Positions 1-28,432 of a DNA stretch of 29,224 nt are shown here, piece after piece. Origin of the DNA: a virus; the IMG/VR virus record IMGVR_UViG_3300020195_000128, positions 1-29,224 of that record; one strand, 5' to 3'. The notes beneath the pieces were generated by a model. It searched no databases. It was not told the origin of the DNA and worked only from the letters and a program-made list of their open reading frames with translations. Made by a program: the position numbers and the translations under genes. Each line of letters begins with the position of its first letter. Position 1 is the first letter of the stretch.

Positions 1-24
1 TAGATATATAGATATATAGATATA
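1..24. repeat. Tandem repeat TAGATATA x3
   Basis: Three perfect head-to-tail copies of an 8-base AT-only unit (TAGATATA) occupy the very start of the window, followed by AAGG. More copies could lie before the window. It is the first of three tandem-repeat families in the gene-free left end, and its AT-only content would make the DNA easy to melt. Confidence 0.85.
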
Positions 25-43
25 AAGGTTCAATTTAGTGGAT

Positions 44-150
44 TAGCCGTCATGCCGTCACTATAGTATAGTTTTCCTGATTAATTTCATATGCTTAGGT
101 CAGTGACGGCTCGAAAAAACTAGCCGTCACTAGCCGTCACTAGCCGTCAC
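44..150. repeat. TAGCCGTCAC repeats with an inverted copy (hairpin)
   Basis: TAGCCGTCAC is present in three perfect tandem copies at 121-150. An inverted copy, AGTGACGGCT, lies at 102-111, so 102-111 and 122-131 can form a perfect 10-bp stem around a 10-base loop. Related direct words (TAGCCGTCA, GCCGTCACTA) lie at 44-63. The spacing suggests protein-binding sites or an RNA/DNA hairpin, for example at a replication origin or genome end. The function is inferred only from the arrangement. Confidence 0.85.
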
Positions 151-350
151 TACAGCGTATATCCCTTTGGTTCAATCGCATCATAATACTTTGTGTCACT
201 CAAAAAACAGCAACACGAAGCGTAAGCCGCGCAGCGTGAAGCGCAGATGCATGAGCGCAGATAAGTAAGGCACAACGCACGACTCGCGCCGCGCGGATGC
301 AATGCGTAGAATAAACACAGAGAGACGCGATGCGCGAGTCACGGTGCACA

Positions 351-480
351 GGTTAAGATGCTGAGCAATAGATGCGATGCGTGGGTGAGAGTATAGGTTA
401 AGATGCTGAGCAATAGATGCGATGCGTGGGTGAGAGTATAGGTTAAGATGCAAAGCGATATATGCGGTGCGTGGGTGAGA
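351..480. repeat. 45-base tandem repeat, about 3 copies
   Basis: A unit starting GGTTAAGATG and ending in GTGGGTGAGAGTATA is repeated with a period of exactly 45 bases, starting at 351, 396 and 441. Copies 1 and 2 are identical and copy 3 has diverged in its middle. Shorter relatives of its words (GATGCGATGC, GCGCGAGTC) are scattered over 230-540. They include an inverted pair, GACTCGCG at 281-288 and CGCGAGTC at 333-340, and a further direct copy at 488-495. The period is a multiple of three, so minus frames stay open by accident. The layout resembles iterons next to the AT tract at 505-523. Confidence 0.85.
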
Positions 481-504
481 TACGGTGCGCGAGTCGTGGT
501 GCGT

Positions 505-523
505 CTATATATATATATAAATA
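505..523. repeat. AT-dinucleotide tract next to the 45-base repeats
   Basis: A run of alternating T and A (about seven TA units, then AATAA) directly follows the repeat block. With the neighbouring repeats it has the look of a DNA-unwinding element, but it could simply be low-complexity sequence. Confidence 0.6.
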
Positions 524-840
524 AGATGCGATGCAATAGAGGATTATAGGGTGCGTTACTGTTTTAGTAATCGCGAAACGCGGTGCGCGGTGCTGCTAAG
601 TGTTGGAAATCATAGCGATATTAAGGAATCTTAGGGTCCGGTACCCCCAAAATACGCGGTTCTGGTGTGGGTGATACATCCCGAATCGCGTCACAACTTA
701 ACCTGGTAAAATACCCGACCAATACACTCCGAGACTTCTCCGCACCTCCTCTCCGCACACCAATACATCCACATATCCACCTCTCCGCAACCAATAATCC
801 CTCTTTCCCCCACCTGAAAAATCCTAAAATTCCTACACTA

Positions 841-1903: not shown

Positions 1904-3220
1904 ATGGCGGTTTCGCTTAAGACTGGGTATGTCCCTCGCCCTTTGCAGAGGATACTCCACGCTTCGATGAAGCGTTTCAATGTTATTGTAGCGCACCGTC
2001 GTTTTGGGAAGTCTGTTTTTACGATTAATCACATTTTGCATAAAGCGCTTAAGTGTTCTCATACTAATCCTCAGTATGCTTATATAGCTCCTACTTACAA
2101 GCAGGTGGAGATGATTGCTTGGGAGTATATGAAGGAATACACAAAGAAGATGCCTGGGGTTAAATACAATAACCAAAAACTGACTGTTACGATTGATCGT
2201 CCTTCTCGTCCTGGTGGTGGGGAGAAGGATAAGGTTAAGATTATGCTTTTGGGGGTTGAGAATAAAGACTCGCTTCGGGGGTTATATTTAGATGGGGCAG
2301 TGTTGGATGAATACGCCCAGTATGACCCTACAGTATGGTCCCAGATCTTACGTCCTGCCTTATCTGATAGGTTGGGGTGGGGGATTTTTATTGGGACTCC
2401 TAATGGCAGGAATGACTTCTATAAGAAGTATATAATAGCGAAGACGTCCCCTGATTGGTATGAAGTGCTTCTTGATGGTGAGAAGACGGGGGTACTTCCT
2501 CCTTCAGAGCTAGCGGATCTAAAGCGGACTATGAGCGACGAGGATTATGAGCAAGAGATTAGGTGTAGTTTTAATTCTGGTGGTCGGGGATCATATTATG
2601 GAAGTTTTCTCACTTCTGCTGAAGACCAGGGAAGAATTACAGACGTCCCTTATAATCCTGCTTATCCTGTTGATACGTACTGGGATTTGGGGATTAGCGA
2701 TTCGTGCGCTATTTGGTTTAGACAGAGACTTCCTGGCGGAAAATTAAACTATATTGATTACTATGAAGAGACGGGTAAAGGCATTAAACACTATGCTGAC
2801 GAGATAAGAAAGAAGAGTTATTCGTTCGGGAGGCATGTTTTGCCTTGGGATGCGAACACTAAAGAGTTGGGTACAGGAGTTACTGTTTCGGAGGTACTCC
2901 GTGGGCACGGATTTCGGCACGAGATCCAAAAAAGACAGAGCGTACAGAATCGGATAGAGGCCTCACGCTTAATGCTTCCTATAAGCTATTTTGATACAAT
3001 CAAGTGCGAATGGTCCCTTGATGCCCTGAGGAACTACACCAAGGTATGGGACGAACAGATTCAGGCATTTTCGAGGACGCCTAAGAAAGATTGGACTTCC
3101 CACGCTGCTGATAGTTATGGGTATTCTGCTTTTGATACCCGACCTAGTTCTTTTGCTAATGACTACGGGAAAGACTTGCAGAGACAAGCTATGGGCGATT
3201 ACAATGAATTAGGAGATTAA
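1904..3220 (+). CDS. terL: Terminase large subunit (ATPase and nuclease)
   Basis: The motor that pumps DNA into the prohead and cuts it. The ATPase domain shows a Walker A motif (HRRFGKS, residues 31-37), a Walker B with the catalytic acid pair (AVLDEY, D135-E136) and the coupling motif GTPNG (164-168). The RNase H-like nuclease domain follows, with WDLGISDS (D261), LPWDAN (D316) and a late Asp in HAADSYG. At 438 residues it is complete and compact compared with T7 gp19. The start at 1904 lies three bases after the preceding stop. It pairs with the small subunit at 948. Confidence 0.97.
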   Translation: MAVSLKTGYVPRPLQRILHASMKRFNVIVAHRRFGKSVFTINHILHKALKCSHTNPQYAYIAPTYKQVEMIAWEYMKEYTKKMPGVKYNNQKLTVTIDRPSRPGGGEKDKVKIMLLGVENKDSLRGLYLDGAVLDEYAQYDPTVWSQILRPALSDRLGWGIFIGTPNGRNDFYKKYIIAKTSPDWYEVLLDGEKTGVLPPSELADLKRTMSDEDYEQEIRCSFNSGGRGSYYGSFLTSAEDQGRITDVPYNPAYPVDTYWDLGISDSCAIWFRQRLPGGKLNYIDYYEETGKGIKHYADEIRKKSYSFGRHVLPWDANTKELGTGVTVSEVLRGHGFRHEIQKRQSVQNRIEASRLMLPISYFDTIKCEWSLDALRNYTKVWDEQIQAFSRTPKKDWTSHAADSYGYSAFDTRPSSFANDYGKDLQRQAMGDYNELGD

Positions 3221-3684: not shown

Positions 3685-5307
3685 ATGAAAGGCGATATAC
3701 TTAAGGACAAGGCCTCCAAGATTTTGAAGATTCACAATCAGATGGAGGGAGGGAGAGTTAATTGGGATCAACACTGGTATGAGTGTGCTAAATACCTTAT
3801 CCCACGCAAGGACGACGTTTATGGCTACATGGTGGCCGGTGAGAAGAAGGGTAACACTCTCTATGACTCAACTGGAATCATTGCTAATGAGCTTTTGGCC
3901 TCAGCTTTACACGGTATGCTTACTAATCCTTCTATTCAGTGGTTTGACCTTACTACTGGTATCGATGAAATTGATAAGAATGAGAATGTACGTCTTTGGT
4001 TACAAAAAGCTGTAAAGGTTATTCATCAAACTTTAAATAATTCAAATTTTCAACCGGAAATACATGAGGTTTACATTGATCAAGGAGCGCTTGGGACAGG
4101 GATTCTTAGGATTGAGGAGGATGACGAGCTGGATGTTCGTTTTCATGCTCGTCCTATTTATGAGCACTATATTAAAGAGAACTTCAAGGGCTTCATTGAT
4201 ACAGTTTCGAGAAAGCTTAAGGAAGATGGTCGTCAAATTCTACAAGAATATTCGTTAGAAATGATTAAAGCACAATTAACTGATCACGATATTGGTAAAA
4301 TACATGAGATGCACGATCAAGAGGTTATTCATTTAGTTTTACCTCTAGAAGACGCTAAATTTCACGGGATAGTACCTAGTGGGAAACAATTCCCGTTCCC
4401 TTCATTTCATGTGATGAAATCAAATGGAATTTTATTAAAAGAGGGCGGCTTCGAGGAGTTTCCTTACGCTGTTCCTCGTTGGTCTAAGGTTACTGGTGAA
4501 AGCTACGGTCGCGGGCCTGGTATGAAGTCTCTTCCTGATGTTAAGATGATCAATGAGATGATGAAGGCCACGATTCGAGGAGCACAGAAGGTAGTAGATC
4601 CTCCTTTACAAGTTCCTGATGACGGAATGGTTATGCCTCTTCGTACTGTTCCTGGTGGGATTAACTATTATCGTGCTGGTTCTGCTGATCGTATTGAGCC
4701 TCTTATTACTCAAGCGCGAATCGATATAGGTTTTGAAGTAATGAACGATGTACGTAAACGTATACGAGAATCATTCTTTATTGACCAACTGCAATTGAAT
4801 GAGGGACCTCAGATGACCGCTACTGAAGTTCTTCAGCGTACAGAGGAGAAATTGCGTTTAATGGGACCTGTTTTGGGCCGGCAACATTTTGAGTTACTTA
4901 AACCTTTGATCAATCGTGTTTTCGGTATTTTAGCTCGTAAAAATAAACTTCCTGAGAATCCTCCACAAGAACTGAAGGAAATAAAGCTTAATGTTCAATA
5001 TTCTTCTATGATTGCTCGAGCTCAGAGGACTTCTGAAATAGAGAACTTGAATCGTGCTATGCAGGCGGTTGGACCTATTGTTCAGATGGACCCTTCAATT
5101 ATGGACAATATTAACGGGGATGAGTATCTTAAATACGTTGGAAATATATTCAATGTACCTCAAGAGTTATTTAACTCTGAGAAAGATGTGGCCAGTATTA
5201 GACAATCAAGACAAGAGCAGGCCCAAAAACAGCAGCAGCTTCAAGAGCAAAATATACAGGCGGATAGCATGAATAAGGTAGCGCCTGCTTTAAAACAAGT
5301 GCAGTAA
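3685..5307 (+). CDS. Portal (head-to-tail connector) protein
   Basis: Forms the dodecameric ring at one capsid vertex through which DNA passes and to which the tail attaches. The 540-residue length and the N-terminal pattern (NWDQHWYECAKYLIPR, then YDSTGIIANELLASALHGML) are typical of the podovirus 'bacteriophage head to tail connecting protein' family, the equivalent of T7 gp8. The FIDQLQ..GPQMTATEVLQR stretch near residues 365-390 is another family hallmark. The Gln-rich C-terminal tail (about residues 508-540) is helical. It lies between the terminase and scaffold genes, as expected. Confidence 0.95.
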   Translation: MKGDILKDKASKILKIHNQMEGGRVNWDQHWYECAKYLIPRKDDVYGYMVAGEKKGNTLYDSTGIIANELLASALHGMLTNPSIQWFDLTTGIDEIDKNENVRLWLQKAVKVIHQTLNNSNFQPEIHEVYIDQGALGTGILRIEEDDELDVRFHARPIYEHYIKENFKGFIDTVSRKLKEDGRQILQEYSLEMIKAQLTDHDIGKIHEMHDQEVIHLVLPLEDAKFHGIVPSGKQFPFPSFHVMKSNGILLKEGGFEEFPYAVPRWSKVTGESYGRGPGMKSLPDVKMINEMMKATIRGAQKVVDPPLQVPDDGMVMPLRTVPGGINYYRAGSADRIEPLITQARIDIGFEVMNDVRKRIRESFFIDQLQLNEGPQMTATEVLQRTEEKLRLMGPVLGRQHFELLKPLINRVFGILARKNKLPENPPQELKEIKLNVQYSSMIARAQRTSEIENLNRAMQAVGPIVQMDPSIMDNINGDEYLKYVGNIFNVPQELFNSEKDVASIRQSRQEQAQKQQQLQEQNIQADSMNKVAPALKQVQ

Positions 5308-6712: not shown

Positions 6713-7654
6713 ATGTCTAGTCAAATTCCTACAGCGTATATAAAACAATACAGCGCTAATGTATTTCATCTTTCTCAACAAATGGCTTCTCGTTTACGCC
6801 CAGCTGTTCGTAACGAATCTCAAAGCTCTGATTCAGCTTACTGGGATCGTATTGGAGCAGTAACTGCTGTTCGTAAGACCAGCCGCCATTCTGATACTCC
6901 TCAAATTGATACTCCTCATAGCAGACGCCAAGTCACTATGAATGACTATGAATATGCTGATTTGGTCGACAAGCAAGACAAATTGCGCACAATCATGGAC
7001 CCAGAAAATCAATATGCTAAAGCCGCCATTATGGCCATGGGACGCGCAATGGATGACGAAATCATTGCTGCTGCTCTTGGTAGTGCTTACGGTGGTGTGA
7101 GTGGAGCTACTGCTGTAGTTCTTCCTACTGCTCAGAAAGTAGCTGCTTTTGACGGCTCTACTACTACTGGTGTTAATCTTAACGTTAAAACTCTTAGAGC
7201 TGTAGCTCAGAAACTTGACGCTGCTGAAGTTGATCCTTCAATTGCACGTTTCTTTGCTTTCAGTGCTTCTCAGAAAGCTTCTCTACTTGCTGAGACTGAA
7301 GTCACTAGCAGCGATTTCGCTATGGTAAAAGCTTTGGTTGACGGAAAAGTTGATACTTTCATGGGATTTAAGTTTATTCATACTGAAAGACTTCCTCGCT
7401 CTAGCACTAATGTTACCTATACAGTAACTAACGGAGTTACTGCTGCCGGTACTGGTACAATTTCTGCTGCTAGCAGCAGACGTTGTATTGCTTGGGCACA
7501 GGATGGACTTCTTCTTTCTGTTGGACAAGATGTACTAGCTAGAATCAGCGAAAGATCAGACAAGTCATACTCTATGCAGGTGTACGCTTGTTTATCTCTA
7601 GGTTCTACTCGTATGGAAGAAGAGAAAGTAATTGAAGTTATTTGTTCAGAGTAA
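6713..7654 (+). CDS. Major capsid protein
   Basis: The shell protein of the head, 313 residues. It follows the scaffold gene. The sequence shows the pattern of T7-like/Bbp17-type capsid proteins: an early Gln-rich helix (IKQYSANVFHLSQQM), RRQVTMNDYEYADLVDKQD near residues 71-89, IMAMGRAMDDEIIAAALG near 107-124, and a C-terminal domain with GFKFIHTERLPR. It has the strongest ribosome binding site in the window (GGAGG at 6704-6708) and its own promoter-like leader. Hairpins follow it. All this fits the most abundant virion protein. Confidence 0.93.
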   Translation: MSSQIPTAYIKQYSANVFHLSQQMASRLRPAVRNESQSSDSAYWDRIGAVTAVRKTSRHSDTPQIDTPHSRRQVTMNDYEYADLVDKQDKLRTIMDPENQYAKAAIMAMGRAMDDEIIAAALGSAYGGVSGATAVVLPTAQKVAAFDGSTTTGVNLNVKTLRAVAQKLDAAEVDPSIARFFAFSASQKASLLAETEVTSSDFAMVKALVDGKVDTFMGFKFIHTERLPRSSTNVTYTVTNGVTAAGTGTISAASSRRCIAWAQDGLLLSVGQDVLARISERSDKSYSMQVYACLSLGSTRMEEEKVIEVICSE

Positions 7655-7661
7655 TTAAAAC

Positions 7662-7687
7662 AGGGGAGCTAGTCTCCCCTTAAATTT
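7662..7687 (+). terminator. Hairpin after the capsid gene (leaky terminator?)
   Basis: AGGGGAG (7662-7668) and CTCCCCT (7674-7680) form a perfect 7-bp stem around CTAGT. It is followed by TAAATTTTT, so the T-run is delayed by four bases. It may be a weak terminator or an mRNA 3'-end stabiliser that sets capsid message level above the downstream genes. Confidence 0.6.
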
Positions 7688-7700
7688 TTAAGGAGTACTT

Positions 7701-8162
7701 ATGGCCACTATTTATGGGGTATATCACACTGACGCTTATATCGATGTCCCTGCTAACGCAGTAGACGCTTCTTTATGGCATGGTGGATCTCGTCGTCTTT
7801 ATGACGAATATGTTCTTGTCGGCGAAGCTTCGATAGCTGATGTAGTTAAACTTTTCAAACTTCCTTCAGGCGCTCGCGTGCATAATGCTAGATTTGTAGC
7901 TCCTTCTGACGGAACTACTGGTCAATGGGATATTGGTTGGGAGCTAAATGAAGCTGGTGACGCTGCTGATGCTGACGGCTTTATCGCTGGAGCCTCTGCC
8001 GATACTGGTGCAGGCGCTGTAGATTTTAAAATGCTTGCTACTCGTCCAGGCTGGAACAAGAAGTTTGGCGCTGAAACTCAAGTAGTACTTACTTGTCTTG
8101 AGGCGACTACTGCTTCTCTTGGCGACACTTTGAAGCTAGAAGTTCTATATACTGTAAACTAA
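7701..8162 (+). CDS. Head decoration-like structural protein
   Basis: A 153-residue protein rich in Ala, Gly, Asp and predicted beta strands, next to the capsid gene and with its own strong ribosome binding site (AAGGAG at 7689-7694). Its features are a LPSGARVHNARFVAPS segment, an Asp/Ala-rich loop (AGDAADADGF) and a closing strand GDTLKLEVLYTV. Small proteins of this type next to the capsid are usually head decoration or stabilising proteins. It lies between two hairpins, a layout that suggests high separate expression. The exported protein at 24059 seems to follow the same pattern. Confidence 0.7.
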   Translation: MATIYGVYHTDAYIDVPANAVDASLWHGGSRRLYDEYVLVGEASIADVVKLFKLPSGARVHNARFVAPSDGTTGQWDIGWELNEAGDAADADGFIAGASADTGAGAVDFKMLATRPGWNKKFGAETQVVLTCLEATTASLGDTLKLEVLYTVN

Positions 8163-8186
8163 GTTCTTCCTGCGTGTTTTTGGTGG

Positions 8187-8213
8187 ATAGGGGACGTATG
8201 TCCCCTATTTTTT
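8187..8213 (+). terminator. Intrinsic terminator after the decoration gene
   Basis: ATAGGGGAC (8187-8195), loop GTAT and GTCCCCTAT (8200-8208) form a perfect 9-bp stem directly followed by a T-run to 8213. This is a textbook rho-independent terminator. Since the tail genes continue on the same strand with no clear promoter, it is probably read through in part. Confidence 0.88.
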
Positions 8214-8223
8214 AGGGGGAAGA

Positions 8224-9039
8224 ATGGCCACAAGTAGTTTAGAAATTTGTAATATTGCTCTATTAAAAATAGGAGCGGACTCTATAACCGCCCTTTCTGA
8301 TGCTAATAAAAGAGCGCGTCTTTGCACTCTTCTTTATGACTTCATGAGAAAGAAGCTACTAAGAGCGCATCCCTGGAATTTTGCTATTAAGAGATCTTTT
8401 CTTCAAAAAGTCACGGATACTTCTACTTCAGTAAATGATGGAACAGATATATTTACTTCAGCAGCAGCATTAAATTCTGTGACAGGGGATACGGCCATTG
8501 TAACTTTGACCAGTGGAACTATTCCTACAGGTATTTCTGAAGACTCTACTTACTACATAATTAAAACAGGAACTTCAGCTTTTAAATTAGCTGAGACTCA
8601 GGCCTCTGCCCTTGCTGATACGGCAATAGATATTACTGCTAATGGTGTTTTTAATATCTCATTAAACATTGGCGCTCCTTTTGGATATTCTCAAAAGTTT
8701 ACCCTTCCTACTGACTACATAAGAGCAGTAAAAGAGGAAGACAAGAACCGCGAGTGGAAGAAAGAAGGAAGTTTTATTCTTTCAAACGATTCAGATTTTA
8801 ACCTTGAATATATTTATAATGTTACTGATACCACAACTTTTGACCCTAGTTTCGATGAGCTACTAGCTCACTTAATTGCCATTGAATTAGCTTTTCCTCT
8901 TAATCAATCTCAGACTTTAAAAGATCGTTTGCTTGATGAATGGAAAAACTTTTCTCTTAAAGATGCTAGATCTTTTGATGCCCAAGAAGGTACACCTGAT
9001 GACCTAGAGACTAATCTTTGGCTTAATTCGAGGTTATAA
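8224..9039 (+). CDS. Tail tubular protein A with an inserted beta module
   Basis: Adaptor ring between the portal and tail nozzle, the equivalent of T7 gp11. The N-terminal helical region (SLEICNIALLKIGADSI, then LYDFMRKKLLRAHPW, residues 5-51) and FTLPTDYIRAV (159-169) are typical. The protein has 271 residues against about 196 for T7 gp11. The excess is an inserted segment at about residues 63-150, rich in Thr, Ser, Ala and Asp with the motif SGTIPTGISEDSTYYII and FKLAETQASA. It looks like the small Ig-like or beta repeat seen in many phage tail proteins. The stop overlaps the next ATG by one base (TAATG). AGGGGGAAG precedes the ATG. Confidence 0.88.
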   Translation: MATSSLEICNIALLKIGADSITALSDANKRARLCTLLYDFMRKKLLRAHPWNFAIKRSFLQKVTDTSTSVNDGTDIFTSAAALNSVTGDTAIVTLTSGTIPTGISEDSTYYIIKTGTSAFKLAETQASALADTAIDITANGVFNISLNIGAPFGYSQKFTLPTDYIRAVKEEDKNREWKKEGSFILSNDSDFNLEYIYNVTDTTTFDPSFDELLAHLIAIELAFPLNQSQTLKDRLLDEWKNFSLKDARSFDAQEGTPDDLETNLWLNSRL

Positions 9040-24874: not shown

Positions 24875-25091
24875 CAGCTTCGATGATAAACTTACCTAGT
24901 TGTTGCTGTAAAGAGTTGTTCTCTGCTTTTACTTCGCCGATCACATGTACCCACAACATTTCATAAAATCCTTTAACTACTTGATCAGTGGTGGTCATTT
25001 TGGTGAAGTCTGTATTTTTGATAATAAGGTCATAGAAGTACCAATCAACGCCGGTAAGATCATCAGTGTGTTTGTGCCCAGTTTTTTCCAT
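24777..25091 (-). CDS. Coiled-coil protein of the replication operon
   Basis: A 104-residue protein from the ATG at 25091, chosen because GGAG lies eight bases upstream on the minus strand. An in-frame ATG at 25106 would add five residues. The first half (DDLTGVDWYFYDLIIKN) may form a small domain. Residues about 50-95 form a strong coiled coil (LQQQLGKFIIEADEQRREKERLQKEV). It overlaps the DNA polymerase gene before it and the nuclease gene after it. No family is recognised. Confidence 0.65.
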   Translation of the reverse strand: MEKTGHKHTDDLTGVDWYFYDLIIKNTDFTKMTTTDQVVKGFYEMLWVHVIGEVKAENNSLQQQLGKFIIEADEQRREKERLQKEVDSLREELSKENPKETRPL

Positions 25092-26820
25092 ACTTATATT
25101 CTCCATCTAAAGGGACTCTAAGATTATAGAATTCCCCTGCTTGTTTAATGCTATCAACTAATATCTGTCCTACGATAGGGATAAGATCTTCTCTTAAGAC
25201 TTCGCATTGTATTTCATCATGGACATTTAATACTGGAAATACATGGTTTGATAGGTCCATTTCTTCCATCTTTTGTGCCCATATAACTGCTGCTCTTTTC
25301 ATTATAATAGCGCCGCAAGATTGCAGTAGTGTATTAAGTGCTAGGTGGGAGGATCTTATGTAAAGATATCTTCCATCTATTGCGGTTAAATACCCACGCG
25401 AATCGGCGATTCGTTTAACTTGATTAACAAGTTGTTCGATACCAGCGATATTTCGTAAAAACATATATTTTATCTTTGCGCCAATACTTGCTTGCTGTTC
25501 TTTGCTGGCCTCGGGTTTAAGAATACTGCCTAATTTCTGCTGCCCTGCTCCATAAAGGAACGCATAGATAAATGTCTTGGCCGAATCGCGATTCGGGAGT
25601 CCTGCGGCCTTCATATTTAAGGTATGAACGTCTCCAGTGACTACGGCCTTACCATAGTTCCCTTCATCATATGCGCCTAAGTAATGAGCAAAGCACCTTA
25701 GTTCTATCCCTGAGGCATCGGCACCTACTATCCATCCTTTGGGACTATGGAACAAAGTTCTAAACTCATTACCATATAATGATCTTTTAGAGGGAACCTG
25801 CGCTAGATTAGGTGAATTATGGGAGCATCTTCCTGTTACTGTTCCCAGGGTAAAAACTTTTCCGTGTATTCTGGAGTTTTGGACACATTTAAGCCATGCC
25901 GTATCCCCTTCTGACAACATAGAGAAGGCCTTATTCATATCTAGGTATTCGCTTAGGATTTTTGCTTCTGGGAAGGGAAGTGAGGCCAAAACTTCTCGCT
26001 TGAGCTGGGGAGCGTTCTTCTCAGTTCTATCTGAAGTCTCCCATCCATATCGTAGTCTGAGTTCTTCAAGAATTTGAGGGCGAGAGTTTGGGTTGAATTT
26101 TTCGTACGATATTTTAATAAAAGAACTGTTGGGGTAGAGTCCAGTTTTAGAATTGCGCTTCTTAGGTGTGAATAGCTTTCCTCGTTTAAGATGAAAAGGG
26201 ATAATTCTTTGGATTTCTTCCTCTCTAATCGTGATTTCACCACCGATTTTAGTTTGTAGAGCAAGCGCTTTTTCCATGTCAAAACTGATTCCATAATTCT
26301 CCTGTTTATCCATGAGTCTTTTGAAAGAGGTTTCAAGCTCTAGGGCCTGCGAGGATAATCTTTTAGTTTCTTCTATGTAATTAAACAATTTAGTATTAAT
26401 TTCGACGTCTCGTTCACAATACCTTTGCATTTCTTCTGACCAGTGGTCAAAAGAGTTATCTTCTTTGAAGGATAGCTTATCTATTTTTAGCCTTTGACCC
26501 CATACCTTAAGCGAGTTTCCTTCCTTGTACATATCTTCAGTAAAGCACATCTGACAGGCCAAGAGGGTATCAAACACTGGATTACTAAACGATCGTTTAG
26601 TTATTTTGAGAATGGCCGGGAGGTCAAAAGAAGTAATGTTATGGCCGATAAGTAGATGGGCGCTTTGTAAAACATCAAGCCCTTGATCAATACTTGGGTA
26701 ATTAGGCCGATCAGCGTACGAGCCCCTCTCTTGAGTATCTAGATTATAAATAACAAGCGAGTGAATCACACTCGCCTGCTTTAATAATCCGTTAGTTTCA
26801 ATATCGAAAACTAGTCTCAT
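25063..26820 (-). CDS. DNA polymerase, family A, with 3'-5' exonuclease
   Basis: Replicative polymerase of the phage, 585 residues (T7 gp5 has 704). The N-terminal proofreading exonuclease has its four acids: D6 and E8 in FDIETNG, D66 in NITSFDLPA and D138 in YCERD. The polymerase domain has motif A (GADASGIELR, D368), motif B (RDSAKTFIYAFLYG, 411-424) and motif C (VHDEI, D535). GTVTGRCSHNSPNLAQVP near 327-343 is also typical. Its start overlaps the preceding gene by four bases (ATGA). It carries two of the paired CGAATCG motifs, including the 16-bp palindrome. Confidence 0.97.
   Translation of the reverse strand: MRLVFDIETNGLLKQASVIHSLVIYNLDTQERGSYADRPNYPSIDQGLDVLQSAHLLIGHNITSFDLPAILKITKRSFSNPVFDTLLACQMCFTEDMYKEGNSLKVWGQRLKIDKLSFKEDNSFDHWSEEMQRYCERDVEINTKLFNYIEETKRLSSQALELETSFKRLMDKQENYGISFDMEKALALQTKIGGEITIREEEIQRIIPFHLKRGKLFTPKKRNSKTGLYPNSSFIKISYEKFNPNSRPQILEELRLRYGWETSDRTEKNAPQLKREVLASLPFPEAKILSEYLDMNKAFSMLSEGDTAWLKCVQNSRIHGKVFTLGTVTGRCSHNSPNLAQVPSKRSLYGNEFRTLFHSPKGWIVGADASGIELRCFAHYLGAYDEGNYGKAVVTGDVHTLNMKAAGLPNRDSAKTFIYAFLYGAGQQKLGSILKPEASKEQQASIGAKIKYMFLRNIAGIEQLVNQVKRIADSRGYLTAIDGRYLYIRSSHLALNTLLQSCGAIIMKRAAVIWAQKMEEMDLSNHVFPVLNVHDEIQCEVLREDLIPIVGQILVDSIKQAGEFYNLRVPLDGEYKYGKNWAQTH
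25581..25596. repeat. 16-bp perfect palindrome of the CGAATCG motif
   Basis: CCGAATCGCGATTCGG within the polymerase gene is a perfect palindrome made of CGAATCG and its complement back to back. A nearby inverted pair with one base between (25399-25413) and CCGCGA-A-TCGCGG at 24738-24750 are close relatives. The motif also lies at 682-690, 20051-20059, 20126-20134 and 28238-28246. Confidence 0.8.
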
Positions 26821-27045: not shown

Positions 27046-27795
27046 TTAAAACTCTACATTCTCTGAAGCATGGTTATTAGGGGTAGAGGTTACCTGGGCA
27101 TCTTCGCTATGGTCTACTTTAGTTTTTCCAGCTTTAATCATTTTGAACATATTGAAGCTTTCCCTTTGCTCCACTTCGTTAGAAGGTCTTGAAGGATATA
27201 CGTCAAGAACTACATAAGTCCCCTTGTCGTTAGTATCAAGCTTCCCTGACAACATGAACGCTTCACAGTTAGGCGCTTTGTTTAGTTGTCGGTTATATAC
27301 AAACATTCTGTTGAAAAGCTTCTTTCCGCCCTTAACTGAAGTTGATCTAAAGTTAATCACGTAAGGAAAGGGGATACCTTCTGCTACCTTTGAAGCTATT
27401 AAGACATAGAAAGAATAGGTCCAGGTATAACGAAAATTACCTTCTTCCCAGGCGCGTCCTTCGTTTGATGGAGTAACTGCTTCAGTTCTAGCGTACTCCC
27501 ACTTTCCGTTTATCTTCTCATTAATCACCCATAGTCTTTCTACATGAAAGGGAATAATTTCAAGAGGGGTATCGATGCTACCGAGTAACTCCCCTGAAAG
27601 GCTGTCTCTAAACTCTCCTAGTTGCGCTTTTCTGTTTAGAACCAGTTTACTCATACCTTGCATGGGCAGAATTTTAGGGATCATTAAATCTTTAGCGCTT
27701 ATTTCCTGAGTTCCCCACGCTTCGAGATGCGAGGGAGTAGCTATAGTTGGAGCTACGGCCTGTTCAGTAGTTTTTGTGATCTCTTTCTTAGTCAT
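27046..27795 (-). CDS. Putative ssDNA-binding protein (gp2.5-like role)
   Basis: A 249-residue protein two genes before the polymerase. It has a pattern I associate with podovirus replication proteins: IPKILPMQGMSKLVLNRKAQLGEFRDSL near residue 38 and then PLEIIPFHVERLWV. Aromatic and basic residues are spread through the beta-rich middle. The C-terminal 20 residues are flexible and acidic and end in Phe (ASENVEF), as in T7 gp2.5 (232 residues, acidic tail ending in Phe) and bacterial SSBs, which use the tail to bind partners. The role is inferred from tail, length and location; I see no OB-fold motif for certain. AAAGGAGAC precedes the ATG on the minus strand. Confidence 0.55.
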   Translation of the reverse strand: MTKKEITKTTEQAVAPTIATPSHLEAWGTQEISAKDLMIPKILPMQGMSKLVLNRKAQLGEFRDSLSGELLGSIDTPLEIIPFHVERLWVINEKINGKWEYARTEAVTPSNEGRAWEEGNFRYTWTYSFYVLIASKVAEGIPFPYVINFRSTSVKGGKKLFNRMFVYNRQLNKAPNCEAFMLSGKLDTNDKGTYVVLDVYPSRPSNEVEQRESFNMFKMIKAGKTKVDHSEDAQVTSTPNNHASENVEF

Positions 27796-27983
27796 TTTGT
27801 CTCCTTTAAATCAATTAAGTAAAAATTAGTTTTGTCTCTATATAAACTTGAAAATACACACATTTTAGTGCTAGTTACCTCTCTTGAAGCACACCATCTA
27901 TAATCGTAATAAAGAATGTTAATGGTGTTATAAATATGCACAACTATTAAGATGGATAGTAAGAAGAAAGCTAGTCGAATCAT
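27792..27983 (-). CDS. Small membrane protein
   Basis: A 63-residue protein with one N-terminal membrane span (LAFFLLSILIVVHIYNTINIL, residues 4-24). The rest is soluble and contains two cysteines. It might be a signal anchor with a periplasmic tail. It is joined to both neighbours by 4-base ATGA overlaps inside the replication operon, which supports it being a real gene. No family is recognised. Confidence 0.6.
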   Translation of the reverse strand: MIRLAFFLLSILIVVHIYNTINILYYDYRWCASREVTSTKMCVFSSLYRDKTNFYLIDLKETK

Positions 27984-28432
27984 TTTTTCTTCCTAAAAGA
28001 TAGTCCGATCTTCTCTGTAGGCTCGTTAACTCCTGGAATAGTTGTCTCACCATTATCAAATTCTTTTCTACAAAAAGAATTAAATGTCATAGCATTAACT
28101 CCGAATAGTGACCAAAACATATCTTTGCCGTATTTTGTCTCAAGCCACTTCGCAAAGGCAATCTTTTCCGTAGGATCTTTAATTGTGGTGTACTCCATGC
28201 GAGTAGTCTTACTTATTTTCCCTGCTTTACCATCCCACGAATCGCGGCCCGTCTTGTCTAGAAGATCCAATATGGCTTCTTCCTTTTCTACCATGATAGC
28301 GTGTTTCCCATTAGATACGGCCTTTGCTGCTTCATACTCTGCCCTAGCAAGGGTATAATCTTCTAGCGCTTTCTCCATTGTGGCCAAGGAAACTTCTTCT
28401 TTCGGCGTGTTCCATTCCTGTAAGTCCGTCAT
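27980..28432 (-). CDS. Conserved phage protein, unknown
   Basis: A 150-residue protein with an N-terminal helical hairpin (MEKALEDYTLARAEYEAAK), then KTTRMEYTTIKDPTEKIAFAKWLETKYG and a C-terminal pattern FNSFCRKEFDNGETTIPGVNEPTEKIGLSFRKK. This ending (NSF-[YC]-[KR]-KE ... IPG ... LSFRKK) is one I recognise from small proteins near replication genes in several phages, without a known function. It is joined to both neighbours by ATGA overlaps. Confidence 0.75.
   Translation of the reverse strand: MTDLQEWNTPKEEVSLATMEKALEDYTLARAEYEAAKAVSNGKHAIMVEKEEAILDLLDKTGRDSWDGKAGKISKTTRMEYTTIKDPTEKIAFAKWLETKYGKDMFWSLFGVNAMTFNSFCRKEFDNGETTIPGVNEPTEKIGLSFRKKK

Follow-up and report, generated by a model that had tools for sequence, protein, structure and literature searches.

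A repeat-rich, gene-free region upstream of the small terminase gene in an HTVC010P/phiVC8-type podophage and its possible role in packaging initiation

The genome fragment and its genes

The DNA analysed here, referred to as the window, is the entire 29,224-base IMG/VR record IMGVR_UViG_3300020195_000128, which is classed as linear and without end repeats. It is part (29.2 kb) of the genome of a podophage whose relatives include HTVC010P and VP2/phiVC8; the large terminase, portal, and capsid genes are homologous and in the same order, and the early arm is on the opposite strand. The plus strand encodes a small terminase (TerS; 927–1634, with a likely ATG start at 948 as read from the sequence), a large terminase (TerL; 1904–3220), a portal protein (3685–5307), a major capsid protein (6713–7654), and tail tube proteins. 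TerS is of the Sf6 type, both by Pfam and by its match to solved Sf6 gp1 chains, and the portal and TerL are ~42–44% and ~40% identical, respectively, to those of Pelagibacter phages. In one relative, L016, TerL and portal are on one strand and the major capsid gene (7504–8439) is on the other, an arrangement that differs from the other relatives.

The minus strand carries a family-A DNA polymerase (25063–26820) and a helicase that is cut by the contig end (28429–29223). Adjoining replication-arm proteins on the same strand (27046–27795 and 27980–28432) match the Pam3 cyanophage families Pam3_Gp34 and gp33-like DUF7307.

Tandem repeats and other features of the gene-free region

Upstream of TerS lies a stretch dense in repeats. 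Tandem Repeats Finder (TRF) confirms the three families of 8, 10, and 45 bases, each of about three copies, that a preliminary description of this DNA had reported. The first is the AT-rich 8-bp unit TAGATATA (×3.0; 1–24), an array cut by the contig end. Iteron-like AGCCGTCACT repeats follow at 45–152, with single copies near 45–61, an inverted copy at 102–111, and three tandem copies at 119–152, where TRF reports the 10-mer array ACTAGCCGTC (×3.4). Within this part CCGTCAC occurs at 55, 124, 134, and 144 and GTGACGG at 103, and the DNA fold z-score is −2.77. The perfect 10-bp hairpin noted earlier is present, with its stem at 102–111 and 122–131, but it does not stand as a separate feature from the array, since the 3' arm is the 10-mer and the 5' arm its inverted copy. 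A terminator scan did not select this hairpin (102–131) as an intrinsic terminator; the three terminator-like sites it returned all lie on the minus strand, at 213–294.

Further downstream, a GCG-rich stretch with imperfect direct and inverted repeats (196–349) raises the GC content to 55% over 200–360, versus 39% in the rest of the window. It is followed by the 45-bp tandem repeat at 350–484 (×2.9 by TRF, 350–480), whose third copy is 80% identical, and by the previously described TA-dinucleotide tract at ~504–523. This density of repeats is genuine and far exceeds chance. Tandem arrays cover 189 of the first 540 bases with a best score of 227. None of 200 dinucleotide shuffles exceeded 43 bases or a score of 52, and none of the 53 other 540-base tiles of the window exceeded 45 bases or a score of 58. 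A search of IMG/VR for the exact repeat units, which may omit the window's own and very near records, returned no match.

The region had been called gene-free over 1–540. The absence of genes is borne out, but that boundary is too short, as the gene-free stretch extends to ~947, up to the likely TerS start. Open reading frames that read through it (196–453 on the minus strand and 667–945 on the plus strand) have no family match, and Rfam returns no structured RNA at E-values up to 1. Immediately before TerS, on the plus strand, are a sigma-70-like promoter (TTGACA-N17-TAAAAT, 11/12; 841–869) and a weaker promoter-like site (TTGACT-N18-TACACT, 9/12; 910–939). The promoter scan found three sites against 2.0 expected by chance, which is no excess. 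Two contigs of the same species are variable relative to the window at 625–800 and nearly identical to it at 800–900, with the stretch around the stronger promoter unchanged in both.

The corresponding position in relatives

Comparison with relatives indicates that a gene-free, repeat-prone stretch is kept upstream of TerS while its repeat sequences differ. A gene-free gap is found at the corresponding place in contigs G004 and G020 and in Greip, Skadi-3, phiVC8, and 23E28.1. The window itself was left out of the count, and an array had to score 45 or more. On that basis, 7 of the 17 clade relatives carry tandem arrays within the 700 bases preceding TerS, compared with 14 of the 207 control tiles (Fisher test, p = 0.0002, an optimistic value because the clade list was hand-chosen by TerL and portal similarity after some of the arrays had been seen). 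The remaining 10 of the 17 have no scoring array, and the contrast weakens to 13/58 versus 70/708 when all usable loci are taken together.

The repeat unit is different in every relative. The slot of 23E28.1 holds a 37/38-bp repeat (×3.5), and those of VP2 and JSF9 hold essentially one copy of the phiVC8 repeat; the stretches compared among these three phages are L127 39247–39310, L130 270–300, and L133 1633–1670. Copy number is therefore not conserved and repeats are not strictly required. Neither the sequence nor the copy number of the tandem repeats is likely to be essential, and the repeats resemble the fast-evolving contents of a conserved slot. A broader order of parts is shared by L055 and G020/L045, in which GTGTCA/TGACAC-type repeats are followed by GCGC-rich DNA, a G/C-tract element, and TerS; L010, L013, L043, and L135 contain parts of this order. 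Of two further phages considered, BPP-1 showed no comparable element, and phiGT1, which is headful by PhageTerm, was set aside as a guide because it has a Terminase_3-type TerL and no comparable gap.

The preliminary description also placed the region between two arms. This holds broadly: in G004, G020, and phiVC8 the slot separates the early or replication arm from the late arm and immediately precedes TerS. In G004, whose portal is 55% identical to that of the window, TerS directly follows a gene-free gap of 1.39 kb, and the minus strand encodes the helicase and polymerase. The G004 arms are not strictly divergent, as the far-side open reading frame adjoining the gap is on the plus strand.

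A conserved G/C element upstream of TerS

The sharpest conserved element of the region falls outside the 540 bases first described. It is a plus-strand near-palindrome of a G-run and a C-run (GGTACCCCCAAAATACGCG / AGGGTCCGGTACCCCCAAAATACGCGGTTC) at 633–662, ~290 bases upstream of the TerS frame, and is proposed to be a packaging-related site. The pattern, first suggested by reading relatives, continues with A's and often GCG (GGGGGTACCCCC-AAA), and recurs ~270–330 bases upstream of TerS in several relatives. A strict model was built from 11 relatives, excluding the window and every pelagiphage. It ranks 633–662 first among the 58,390 positions of the window with 20.5 bits, the runner-up scoring 11.7.

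The same model finds gap sites in L002 (same species), L026, L043, HTVC034P, and HTVC010P, of which only L026 had not previously been inspected by eye; L043 is outside the model, but its site had been seen earlier. The match in HTVC028P is weak (6.9 bits) and was left uncounted, and the model finds no element in L006, L045, L016, phiVC8, 23E28.1, ZP6, P26218, OH, and eight other pelagiphages. In leave-one-out models the chosen site ranked first in 14 of 16 sequences, a count inflated by the sites having been picked by eye. The window element does not appear to form a stable hairpin, folding no better than shuffles, in contrast to that of L073.

A second group of relatives carries a C-rich element like CACCCCCCGCAAAACCGCCCGCC between TerS and TerL, ~60–270 bases before TerL. 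It was seen at ~26 loci, including L051, L052, L056, L058, L059, L064, L069, L075, L080, L093, and L117, and a similar element lies upstream of TerS in L079 and L085. Homology to the window element is not supported, as a model built from the C-rich element does not select the window site.

Packaging initiation and its alternatives

Taken as a whole, the region is of an ordinary kind, apart from one conserved element that was not expected. The reading we favour, tentatively and at a little under even confidence, is that of a non-coding control and packaging-initiation region between the early and late arms of an HTVC010P/phiVC8-type podophage. The preliminary description had offered a packaging site and an iteron origin as options, and both are plausible; adjacency to TerS favours the former and a D5-like primase-helicase encoded by relatives keeps the latter, its main rival, in play. 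A packaging role is suggested by position and comparison: the region lies directly upstream of TerS and TerL and has its repeats, promoter-like sequences, and G/C element beside a TerS of the Sf6 type, in a slot that is repeat-prone in relatives. From these we infer binding by TerS, a nicking step, and what each repeat does. The Sf6-type TerS from the adjacent gene would bind the region on concatemeric DNA, via the repeats and/or the near-palindrome at 633–662, and would bring TerL to nick nearby and start packaging. The sigma-70-like promoters at 841–939 would drive the terminase operon.

The layout is familiar from lambda cos and SPP1-type pac, where repeat-containing DNA beside terS forms the terminase recognition region. 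This likeness is one of layout, with no sequence similarity claimed, and the window site is a candidate. TerS is known in general to recognise packaging initiation sites (PMC9611059). The intergenic region of phiVC8 (Enhodamvirus; 39029–39422) resembles the window in having a late arm, an opposite early arm, and a gap before TerS, and this gap contains a 27-bp tandem repeat (×2.4), a GCGC-rich hairpin, and a sigma-70 promoter. It differs in its repeat sequences, in a TerS that is not alignable and a TerL only 26% identical, and in having no G/C element by the strict model. The authors of the phiVC8 study proposed that cos lies within this tandem repeat, as a prediction rather than a measurement (PMC4802629). 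For ZP6, in which TerS starts at base 336, termini were called with PhageTerm (PMC8515928), and base 1 is presumably the terminus so called.

HTVC010P and HTVC034P likewise have a gene-free stretch before the packaging genes, here upstream of TerL, and it contains the G/C element; their portals are ~44% and their TerL proteins ~40% identical to those of the window. Their gaps differ in being AT-rich and free of strong tandem arrays. The annotation of HTVC010P shows no DNA polymerase or helicase, and Skadi-1, a pelagiphage of the same group, is reported to have no helicase and primase genes (PMC10504331). The G/C element therefore does not track the replication module, and its presence in these pelagiphages together with its place beside TerS favours a packaging role. 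A more specific proposal, which we regard as speculative and rather unlikely, is that terminase recognises or nicks the DNA at the near-palindrome. This would be a hitherto undescribed site shared by an aquatic podophage clade that includes the HTVC010P pelagiphages, and a rapidly evolving iteron origin would lie next to it within the same control region.

A replication origin is the main alternative, possible but on balance doubtful. Iteron origins of D5/P4-alpha-type replicons combine AT-rich DNA with short repeats, direct and inverted, beside it, and the window has several short direct repeats adjoining an AT-rich stretch. On this account the AGCCGTCACT copies and/or the 45-mers would be iterons bound by a D5-like primase-helicase of the P4-alpha type, with the adjacent AT tracts melting. 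A protein carrying D5_N and DUF5906 domains is encoded by relatives that share this map, and strong arrays are missing from the gaps of HTVC010P-group pelagiphages, which reportedly have no helicase or primase (PMC10504331). The sign of the GC skew also changes near the region, but the skew tracks gene direction and is therefore confounded. Against an origin, the repeat units are not conserved between relatives and fall to about one copy in VP2 and JSF9, and the region differs from D5/P4-alpha-type origins in lying beside terS rather than a replication gene. The primase gene is absent from the window, so that the candidate initiator is found in relatives only, and no DnaA-box consensus was found in 1–950. 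Both roles may share the region: a division in which the repeats are D5-type origin iterons and the G/C element serves packaging fits the absence of strong arrays from HTVC010P-type gaps.

It is less probable still that the region is only a promoter-bearing spacer, in which the promoters matter and the repeats are slippage products accumulating in non-coding DNA. Such a spacer would agree with the promoter-like sites preceding TerS, with repeat units that differ in every relative, and with the variability of 625–800 beside the near-identity of 800–900 between same-species contigs. The enrichment of repeats at this place over other tiles speaks against it, and a G/C element recurring at a similar distance from TerS in several relatives exceeds what a drifting spacer would be expected to retain.

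The left end of the contig

That the region is a physical end of the genome, with a direct terminal repeat or a cohesive end, or else an artefact of assembly, is very improbable. In favour are the end of the window itself, the breaks of two same-species contigs close by (at window ~581 and ~625), and the 125-bp terminal repeat that some Skadi isolates are reported to have (PMC10504331). Against it, the region has no second match in the record, the G004 contig spans the equivalent gap, and the deposited genomes of Greip, Lederberg, and JSF9 are circular. Contig ends show no excess here, and the gene-free slot recurs in unrelated assemblies and isolates.

Position 1 is a contig break and not the end of the phage genome. 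The suggestion that a genome terminus explains why the window ends here is not supported, as G004 runs through the gap and contig ends are not concentrated upstream of TerS. Among 71 contigs with TerS, 20 of 71, 12 of 51, 11 of 39, and 6 of 28 end in successive kilobases upstream of the gene; this flat rate disfavours a fixed physical end, and clustered ends were rejected as proof of a terminus. In the 37.1-kb relative G020, whose helicase is 53% identical, the helicase lies at about the same distance from TerS as in the window and is followed by ~7 kb more, including the D5-like primase-helicase. The window therefore probably lacks ~8 kb of early genes. The direct terminal repeat raised in the preliminary description, for which the same sequence was sought at the far end, was rejected since the region has a single match in the record, itself; the window is incomplete at its right end. 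The two same-species contigs do not reach the repeats, and bases 1–580 were seen in this contig only. A helicase-based search turned up no same-species contig that spans the left end.

Ends of other assemblies in this group also involve repeats. Phage OH has an annotated 55-bp end repeat (L124, 1–55; L126, 1–55), which more likely represents an overlap left by the assembler than a genuine terminal repeat, since the genome was assembled with SPAdes and its circularity validated by PCR. Both ends of the 40.7-kb contig G021 (L217, 4383–4679; L218, 10–316) lie in TCCGTA/CCGCCA-type simple repeats, the likely cause of the assembly break. The right end of G020 in TerS orientation (L215, 95–417) has ~16 copies of the 18-bp unit AAACTCTAGCATTACCAG inside an open reading frame near the contig end.

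Implications for HTVC010P-type phages

HTVC010P-type phages are abundant marine viruses, and where and how their packaging starts is not settled in the literature surveyed. If the conserved element marks the start of packaging, it would provide a testable site for the group and would help in closing metagenomic genomes whose contigs stop within this stretch of repeats.
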